NCBI GenBank assembly: GCA_027487945.1
Contig: JAIYCQ010000014.1
Coordinates: 1-64,000 of the forward strand
Direction of reading: 5' to 3'
Source of the DNA: Caulobacteraceae bacterium
GTDB taxonomy: Bacteria > Pseudomonadota > Alphaproteobacteria > Caulobacterales > Caulobacteraceae
Length of the DNA: 64,000 nt
Notes under the pieces: model-generated
Databases searched by the model: none
Told to the model about the DNA's origin: nothing
Seen by the model: the letters and a program-made list of their open reading frames with translations, nothing else
In this document: positions 9,933-10,807 of the stretch, one piece after another
Layout: each line of letters opens with the position of its first letter
Numbering within the stretch: position 1 is the stretch's first letter
Translations under genes and position numbers: made by a program

Positions 9933-10000
9933 GCGAGGCCGGCTTGCCACGCCAGGCAATCCCGCCTATCCCATGCCCCGCACAACGGAGCCTCGCCGGA

Positions 10001-10132
10001 ATGCTTTCGCGTTTCGACATCGCTGACATGACCGCCGCGCCTTCGGGCGTGAGCGTCGCCGCCTGCGTCATGTGCAAAACCATGATGATTATGACCGATC
10101 CCCCCGGACCGGAGCGCAGGCGCGCGTCTTAA
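10001..10132 (+). CDS. Putative attenuator leader peptide rich in Met/Thr/Ile/Lys codons
   Basis: A 43-codon frame with ATG at 10001 and a GGAG 11 bases upstream. Codons at 10070-10096 read Met-Cys-Lys-Thr-Met-Met-Ile-Met-Thr: eight of nine specify aspartate-family amino acids. The stop at 10130 lies 32 bases before a strong terminator. Three mutually exclusive helices can form across this region (see the attenuator entry), so the frame probably serves as a ribosome-stalling sensor rather than as a functional protein. An internal ATG at 10028 would give 34 residues with the same control codons but has no clear ribosome-binding site. A weak upstream promoter may be TTGCCAC (9944) with GCCTATC (9964). 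Confidence 0.62.
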   Translation: MLSRFDIADMTAAPSGVSVAACVMCKTMMIMTDPPGPERRRAS

Positions 10133-10193
10133 CGACCGCCGATTGATCGCAAGATCTTCGAAAGCCCCGCTCCGGAAACGGCGCGGGGTTTTT
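10060..10193 (+). promoter_or_regulatory. Transcription attenuator with alternative 1:2, 2:3 and 3:4 helices
   Basis: Segment 1 CGCCTGCG (10060-10067) is perfectly complementary to CGCAGGCG (10115-10122). Overlapping that, CCGGAGCG (10109-10116) is perfectly complementary to CGCTCCGG (10168-10175), which lies inside the 5' arm of the terminator at 10165-10193. A ribosome stalled on the control codons (10070-10096) would cover segment 1 and free segment 2 to pair with segment 3, preventing termination. A ribosome that reaches the stop codon would cover segment 2 and allow the terminator. This is the architecture of amino-acid biosynthetic attenuators. Confidence 0.65.
10165..10193 (+). terminator. 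Attenuator terminator hairpin
   Basis: CCCCGCTCCG and CGGCGCGGGG pair over 10 bp with one mismatch around a GAAA tetraloop, followed by five T. It sits between the leader frame and the first ACT-like gene. Confidence 0.85.
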
Positions 10194-10238
10194 GCTGTGC
10201 GGTCTGTCGGTCCCCCTCTCAAGCAAAGGACCAACACC

Positions 10239-10526
10239 ATGCCACTCCCCTGTTCTGCCATAGACCTTCCCGATCCAGAGGCCCGCCACGTGCTGCGCTT
10301 CGCGGCCCATGACGTCGCCACCGCCCTCGACGCTGTGCGCGACGGCCTCGCCGCCTCCGGCGCCGAGGTCTGCAATCTGCAGCTCAAGGCCGTCGGCGCC
10401 CTGGTCGAGGGCGTCCTGCGGCTGCAGCGGCTCGACGAGGCCGGCGCGGTGCGTCTGAGCCACCGGCTCGCCGACCTGCCGGGCGTGCTGTCCTCCCGCG
10501 TCGAGCACCAGTGGGGGCGGTCATGA
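10239..10526 (+). CDS. Small ACT-like protein (first of a tandem pair)
   Basis: A 95-residue protein with the alternating pattern of an ACT fold: a strand (HVLRFAAHD), a helix (ATALDAVRDGLAASG), two strands (EVCNLQLK, VEGVLRLQ), a helix (AGAVRLSHRLADL) and a final strand (GVLSSRVEHQW). ACT domains bind amino acids and regulate amino-acid enzymes. No catalytic domain is attached. AAAGGA lies eight bases upstream of the ATG. The gene is the first after the attenuator and overlaps the second ACT-like gene by four bases. The ACT assignment rests on pattern only. Confidence 0.6.
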   Translation: MPLPCSAIDLPDPEARHVLRFAAHDVATALDAVRDGLAASGAEVCNLQLKAVGALVEGVLRLQRLDEAGAVRLSHRLADLPGVLSSRVEHQWGRS

Positions 10527-10807
10527 GCACGGAGGATCCGAAACGGCGGCTGTTTCTCGTCCGCGCCGCCGATGAGCCGGATGCCCTGGTTCGCGTGCTG
10601 GGGGTGGTGACGCTGTTGCAGGCGAGGCTGCGCCGCATCGAGGCTGAGCCGGTCGGCGACGGCCTGTCGATCCGGCTGGAGATCGAGGACGCCGGCGAGC
10701 ACAAGGCCGAGGCGCTGGCCCGGCGGCTGGAGGCCTGCCCGTCCGTGCGGCGGCTGGCCTTCGGCTGGCGGGGCGGTCTTGCTCCTGTCGCAGCGACAGG
10801 CCAGTAG
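10523..10807 (+). CDS. IlvM-like ACT-domain protein (second of the pair)
   Basis: A 94-residue protein whose core, RLFLVRAADEPDALVRVLGV followed by a beta-beta-alpha-beta unit ending PSVRRLAFGWR, resembles the small regulatory subunit of acetolactate synthase (IlvM/IlvN ACT domain). In those enzymes the small subunit binds a catalytic large subunit and mediates valine feedback. No acetolactate synthase large subunit is encoded in this window, so this is either a remnant of an ilvGM-type operon or a free regulator acting on a partner elsewhere. It overlaps the preceding ACT-like gene by four bases. The upstream attenuator supports an amino-acid-related role. Confidence 0.62.
   Translation: MSTEDPKRRLFLVRAADEPDALVRVLGVVTLLQARLRRIEAEPVGDGLSIRLEIEDAGEHKAEALARRLEACPSVRRLAFGWRGGLAPVAATGQ

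Follow-up and report, generated by a model that had tools for sequence, protein, structure and literature searches.

A probable ribosome-mediated attenuator with aspartate-family control codons before two free-standing ACT-domain genes in Caulobacteraceae

In a Caulobacteraceae genome, two free-standing ACT-domain proteins (ACT1 and ACT2) are encoded in a two-gene operon that is probably controlled by a ribosome-mediated transcription attenuator that responds to shortage of Thr, Ile or Met (or Lys). The attenuator mechanism is well supported, through comparison of sequences among relatives and analogy with known leaders; ribosome stalling, read-through and ligand binding by the ACT pair are inferred. 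For the pair itself, a free amino-acid sensor is the favoured reading.

Layout of the locus

The window is the whole stretch of DNA analysed, 64,000 nucleotides on contig C16 of a host genome of 3.33 Mb; among named records, Caulobacter sp. and C. vibrioides come nearest to it, judged by carriage of these genes. The order over positions 9944–10807 is a promoter-like site, a leader ORF, an antiterminator/terminator and two overlapping ORFs (table 1). Upstream of the leader, the pattern TTGn3-N15-18-TAT was present at 15 of the 65 aligned loci, against 2.0 expected from mononucleotide shuffles. The leader ORF runs from ATG at 10001 to TAA at 10130–10132 and has the product MLSRFDIADMTAAPSGVSVAACVMCKTMMIMTDPPGPERRRAS. 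A sequence-only reading made earlier had described a 43-codon leader with the run Met-Cys-Lys-Thr-Met-Met-Ile-Met-Thr (MCKTMMIMT), and the run lies exactly at 10070–10096. The ACT1 and ACT2 ORFs share four bases (ATGA), the ACT2 start lying within the ACT1 stop.

Table 1. Positions of the features at the locus, numbered from the first letter of the window.
Feature	Position	Strand	Evidence
Promoter-like TTGCCA-17-TATCCC	9944..9972	+	read from sequence; candidate only
Leader peptide ORF, 43 codons + stop	10001..10132	+	sequence; same-layout leaders in relatives
Control codons ATG TGC AAA ACC ATG ATG ATT ATG ACC	10070..10096	+	Met/Thr/Ile/Lys/Asn enrichment, 59 leaders
Hairpin 1:2 (CCG.TCC....GGA.CGG)	10095..10112	+	position kept directly 3' of control codons
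Helix 1 of the sequence-only reading	10060-10067/10115-10122	+	possible in window; 3/7 window-clade genomes
Antiterminator 5' arm (strand 2)	10109..10116	+	folding and strand 2/strand 3 pairing comparison
GATC-GCAA-GATC hairpin, GNRA loop	10145..10156	+	conserved just 5' of terminator; z −5.2
Antiterminator 3' arm (strand 3)	10168..10175	+	overlaps 5' arm of terminator
Intrinsic terminator and U run	10164..10193	+	−21 kcal/mol, z −3.4; outer stem columns invariant in 65-locus alignment
Hairpin GGTCC/GGACC over ACT1 Shine-Dalgarno AAAGGA (10225-10230)	10209..10232	+	46/65 loci vs 14.3 expected
ACT1, 95 aa	10239..10526	+	AlphaFold2 pLDDT 82, predicted ACT fold; no Pfam match
ACT2, 94 aa	10523..10807	+	AlphaFold2 pLDDT 85, predicted ACT fold; Pfam ACT_5 below cut-off

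Helices of the leader

Three competing helices had been proposed from the letters, with RNA folding as a check, and the positions given for the antiterminator and the terminator proved correct. The antiterminator (strand 2 with strand 3) was contained in the minimum-energy structure of 10105–10176 (−33 kcal/mol, z −2.9 against dinucleotide shuffles), and the terminator segment 10163–10196 folded alone gave −21 kcal/mol (z −3.4); the two structures are mutually exclusive in silico. A simple terminator scan of the window did not flag the terminator, probably because of a mismatch within its stem. The third helix, helix 1, was rejected as a conserved element since it can form in only three of the seven window-clade genomes, the window counted. 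The full leader folded with z −2.5, its minimum-energy fold containing seven of the eight helix 1 pairs together with the local hairpin at 10095–10112, and the competition of helix 1 with hairpin 1:2 follows no fixed pattern.

Strand 2 is part of the 3' arm of hairpin 1:2. The five window-clade members of the 65-locus alignment form such a hairpin immediately 3' of the control codons, and the remaining two clade members have the same stem letters as the window hairpin; across the alignment the z value was below 0 in 56 of the 65 loci (mean −0.98), only a modest gain over shuffles. The pairing of strand 2 with strand 3 was better than that of a shuffled strand 2 (z below −1.5) in 62 of the 65 loci, with a mean z of −2.98. 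Strand 2 averaged −17.5 with its own strand 3 and −15.7 with those of other loci; the window-clade strand 2 (five rows) gave −17.0 with strand 3 of its own clade versus −11.2 with other clades, but the converse fails, strand 2 of the other clades giving −18.7 with the window-clade strand 3 and −15.9 with their own. Paired cells of the antiterminator amounted to 80% versus at most 56% when slid. Its column covariation in the 65-locus alignment was not above shuffles, 211 of 500 of which reached its score.

A further hairpin, 3' of the terminator and over the Shine-Dalgarno sequence of the first gene, was present in most leaders. It covaries (GGTCC/GGACC to GGTTCC/GGAACC), with a score that 2 of 500 shuffles attained and 89.2% of cells paired versus at most 62.7% when slid; two of the five measures taken were no better than shuffles, and the hairpin folded alone in the window gave z −0.7, no gain over shuffles.

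Conservation and control codons

Attenuators were extracted at 95 loci from Caulobacteraceae, some genomes contributing twice, which gave 77 distinct sequences; 30 of the 95 were dropped as over 96% alike and 65 were aligned. L110 and L116 stand outside the 95, no terminator having been matched there by the extraction pattern. The shared layout consists of the control run, a local hairpin, strand 2, the stop, mostly a GATC-GCAA-GATC hairpin, and the terminator. A covariance model of the attenuator matched in 158 of 249 family genomes (E up to 0.01), including on G001:C9. The exact pattern was found at 17 places in 16 of 41 genomes; one of the 17 (L154, on G021:C139) is embedded in an unrelated coding frame, and another two belong to a Leu/Val/Ile type. 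Neither the exact pattern nor the model found a second copy in the window's genome. At gathering score, Rfam gave no matches in the window and none at the attenuators of L094, L109 and L131; low-threshold Rfam matches were chance-like and were rejected.

ACT2 was present in 43 and ACT1 in 38 of 81 genomes searched, the window's genome included and all of its own genus; an ACT2 match was also obtained in Caulobacter vibrioides DSM 9893. A profile search placed ACT2 in 74 of the 249 family genomes, spread over 6 of 22 genera, and the attenuator together with ACT2 is retained in several genera. At L192 (G275) the attenuator and ACT1 are kept and ACT2 has apparently been lost, UPF0114 being next.

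Control codons were counted in an 11-codon window before the hairpin of 59 aligned leaders (649 codons); the 59 include L119, whose control window was in the wrong frame, and since the genomes are related the counts across loci are not independent. Met accounted for 129 codons (8.6 times background), Thr for 118 (3.8 times), Ile for 110 (4.3 times), Lys for 64 (4.1 times) and Asn for 29 (2.3 times), so that these five, all of the aspartate family, filled 450 of the 649 positions. Leu and Arg were depleted (0.2 times each), Val was not enriched (0.7 times), and none of the nine amino acids listed besides the five exceeded 1.4 times background. Rare synonyms were preferred, Ile being ATT in 101 of 110 cases (5% in background genes) and Lys being AAA in 50 of 64 (11% in background genes). 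The order within the run varies by lineage (KTTTMIIITP, MTIMMSIKTP, MWNMINQIKTV, MCKTMMIMTD), and this lineage-dependent arrangement indicates that composition is kept and not one peptide. On the conservation check proposed in the sequence-only reading, codon composition and layout are shared by several genera, in support of a complete amino-acid attenuator with an aspartate-family run, although the antiterminator columns did not covary above shuffles.

Related attenuators before other genes

Related attenuators were found before genes of several amino-acid pathways. Leu/Val/Ile leaders precede a protein resembling the serine-dehydratase beta domain (SDH_beta-like, see below) at six loci, three of them with ilvE next: at L152, L153 and L160 (Caulobacter G009, G013 and G222) the attenuator is followed by the SDH_beta-like protein and ilvE, and at L155, L156 and L157 a leader with ALLLTVLITAW and the attenuator precede an SDH_beta-like gene, with no adjoining ACT2 or ilvE seen. 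Thr/Ile/Met leaders with terminators stand before aspartokinase-type genes at L185, L187, L189 and L196 (those in G255 and G283 carry a homoserine dehydrogenase domain), a Met/Thr/Ile/Lys leader stands before asd at L198, and Leu/Ile/Val leaders stand before ilvD at L184, L186, L188 and L201. Twenty further, weaker covariance-model matches that were read comprised four ilvD, four aspartokinase-type, one asd, three ACT1 and eight unclear cases; the eight (L190, L191, L195, L197, L199, L200, L202 and L203) did not resemble this attenuator ahead of a clear amino-acid gene. One ilvD, one aspartokinase-type gene and asd were assigned by family search with the first 150 residues and the other genes by resemblance. 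This match between codons and gene function is the best evidence that the control codons report the pathway. Against the view that a Met-rich aspartate-family run is unusual, leaders of the Thr/Ile/Met type recur before aspartokinase and asd genes of relatives, so that such a leader is not exceptional in this family.

Two of the loci listed above, L191 and L203, have a Gln-rich leader (THAQQQQHR and CTQQQNRR) and a terminator before a protein of about 155 residues, possibly a glutamine-sensing attenuator.

The ACT proteins and their partners

Both AlphaFold2 models have the predicted beta-alpha-beta-beta-alpha-beta ACT fold. Their fold matches included NikR and ribosomal protein S6 besides the ACT domains of PGDH, RelA, homoserine dehydrogenase and AHAS small subunits; Z values within 1 were taken as tied, so that no family is singled out. 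Profiles of ACT1 and ACT2 matched each other with 96% probability (E 1.3e-9), and the two are homologous. Pfam gathering scores were not reached, ACT2 scoring 19.8 bits against ACT_5 (cut-off 27) and ACT1 having no match. The genome's own IlvB, IlvH and homoserine dehydrogenase, used as tblastn queries, found nothing in the 64-kb window, in agreement with the earlier description of two overlapping ACT-like genes that lack a catalytic subunit.

Among the 31 distant loci L091–L121, six had a strong ACT1 match and 21 had, in place of ACT1, the SDH_beta-like protein of about 100 residues (E below 1e-20); L097, L116, L120 and L121 had neither match, L120 and L121 being SDH_beta-like by eye. This family has its relatives in the serine-dehydratase beta (ASB) domain, the best solved match being Legionella sdhL (E 6.5e-5), with weak Pfam SDH_beta matches in 5 of 13 members (best E 0.009). 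It was rejected as a diverged ACT1, since profile comparison gave 0.8% with ACT1 and 0.2% with ACT2. It was found at 25 places at E below 1e-20 in the 249 genomes, with many weaker matches in long frames. At L106, L111 and L118 an extra short ORF follows the Shine-Dalgarno region and overlaps the ACT1 start.

Downstream, msrA is present in 25 of 25 typical Caulobacter loci (L040–L064; by motif, one by Pfam), UPF0114 in five of five window-clade loci (by motif, the window's by Pfam), and other neighbours elsewhere among the distant loci. This variability indicates that the pathway partner is not co-encoded and that the constant unit is the attenuator, a sensor-type partner and ACT2.

In a class-wide search the ACT2 profile matched in 80 of 337 genomes (E up to 0.001); 20 places were examined, and many of the weaker places match IlvH in frame length. 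In other alphaproteobacterial families, GCGAATTA is conserved within a short ORF (Arg-Ile-Thr/Ser-x-Pro); after it come a CCCGG/CCGGG-type hairpin and then a stand-alone ACT ORF. This arrangement, seen at 14 of 20 loci (L164, L167–L169, L172–L176, L178–L180, L182 and L183) about 80–190 bases upstream of the ACT match and giving no Rfam match at the seven loci searched, may be another leader of orphan ACT genes, unrelated to the first.

Alternative readings

It is unlikely that the ACT pair is an extra or alternative acetolactate synthase (AHAS) small subunit of the IlvM/IlvN type acting on an IlvB encoded elsewhere. The best solved relative of the ACT2 family by sequence is E. coli IlvH (2f1f, E 5.4e-4), the best Pfam family is ACT_5, and the fold matches include both IlvH and IlvN; the single-ACT length of the pair also resembles that of IlvM and IlvN. 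However, PGDH, RelA and homoserine dehydrogenase tie with those fold matches, Leu is scarce in the codon run and Val shows no enrichment there, and the window's genome already encodes a complete ilvB-ilvH at another place, behind a leader of its own. For the ACT1 family no sequence relation to IlvH or IlvN was found. Co-occurrence with acetolactate synthase, suggested as a search in the sequence-only reading, was not borne out: tblastn with the genome's own IlvB in 70 neighbourhoods (mostly about 4 kb each side, with two repeats and seven having an SDH_beta-like gene only) gave no large subunit except a ThDP-type match of 27% identity in L110, which is probably iolD since it sits behind a gene resembling iolC. 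The homoserine dehydrogenase of the window's genome carries its own ACT domain, and the pair was therefore rejected as the missing ACT of that enzyme. With homoserine dehydrogenase and AHAS thus each provided for, by its own ACT domain and its own ilvH respectively, the pair appears to be an addition and not a replacement.

A leader that works as a functional small protein, or as an arrest peptide sensed through its nascent chain, rather than as a sensor through its codon content, is improbable. At the typical Caulobacter loci L040–L064 the leader has a hydrophobic N-terminus and an almost invariant stretch, IKTVxxRTGQ; this stretch, though, overlaps strands 1 and 2, other lineages keep composition only, and in related attenuators the codons change along with the function of the gene. 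In the window clade, nonsynonymous changes in the leader were as fast as synonymous ones (dN 0.053, dS 0.033, from few changes).

A decaying remnant of an ilvGM-type operon that has lost its large subunit, as raised in the sequence-only reading, is very improbable: leader endings such as KTVIITPCHMGTGR resemble the E. coli ilvG leader, but no AHAS large subunit turned up beside the sampled loci, several genera keep the attenuator with ACT2, and dN/dS against G028 (one genome pair) is well below 1 for both ACT1 (dN 0.055, dS 0.270) and ACT2 (dN 0.048, dS 0.396). Scarcely credible is the sensing of the t6A tRNA modification, which occurs on tRNAs reading A-starting codons: the codons for Met, Ile, Thr, Lys and Asn, hence nearly all control codons, start with A, but Ser AGC was unpreferred (6 of 28 Ser codons versus 34% in background) and related branched-chain-type leaders use CTT and GTA.

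Discussion

Under the attenuator mechanism, with plentiful charged tRNA for Thr, Ile and Met (or Lys) the ribosome would clear the leader, hairpin 1:2 would tie up strand 2, and the terminator would end transcription. With one of these amino acids short, the ribosome would stall on the ATG/ATT/ACC/AAA run and cover the 5' arm of that hairpin, so that strand 2 could pair with 10168–10175, no terminator would form, and ACT1-ACT2 would be transcribed. The hairpin over the ACT1 Shine-Dalgarno sequence may add a translational step. Most likely the pair would be a regulatory subunit, amino-acid-binding and detached from its aspartate or branched-chain enzyme, which would be encoded elsewhere. Three points suggest a free-standing sensing regulator as the output: the domain type, the exchange of one sensor-type partner domain for another, and the lack of an enzyme beside the pair.

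The locus can be set beside four known systems. The enteric Thr operon leader (thrL) has Thr/Ile control codons and the same attenuator logic; the locus adds Met and Lys codons and its genes encode ACT proteins, and the Rfam thrL model (RF00506) matched with 13.8 bits over the terminator part only (gathering score 55). E. coli ilvGMEDA combines an attenuator with the single-ACT small subunit IlvM in one operon, whereas here there is no large subunit, Val and Leu codons are unenriched and there are two ACT proteins. ASB and ACT domains also go together in the beta chain of L-serine dehydratase (SdaAB) and in PGDH, and the order in that beta chain, SDH_beta then ACT, is that of the loci with an SDH_beta-like and then an ACT protein; here they are two separate proteins without a catalytic chain, with weak similarity to SDH_beta. 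The Caulobacter ilvBN (ilvIH) attenuator likewise belongs to this genus and combines control codons in a leader with an intrinsic terminator, but it differs in its codons and genes and controls an enzyme; in the window's genome its leader is short (VRSATAKITIVLT) and lacks the GATC-GCAA-GATC hairpin.

Attenuators and ACT domains are already known. Neither an account of the locus nor a study of the ACT pair was found in open-access PMC literature, nor in open-access literature an aspartate-family-wide leader before orphan sensor domains kept across several genera; a term search of PMC4833913 and PMC2965389 gave no Caulobacter passage.

It is likely that starvation for Thr, Ile, Met or Lys induces free-standing amino-acid-sensor subunits. 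More tentatively, Caulobacteraceae may use attenuation to control detached allosteric sensors, aspartate-family starvation raising free ACT-ACT (or SDH_beta-like and ACT) regulators that would retune feedback control of enzymes encoded elsewhere, with sensor partner and control codons swapped like modules. Attenuators usually stand before enzymes; in this model genus a conserved one precedes only regulatory-type domains, which is an unusual target. The natural swap of control codons among related attenuators offers a ready-made test of codon-based sensing, and the locus gives a handle on the ACT pair and on how Caulobacter coordinates its supply of Thr, Ile, Met and Lys.
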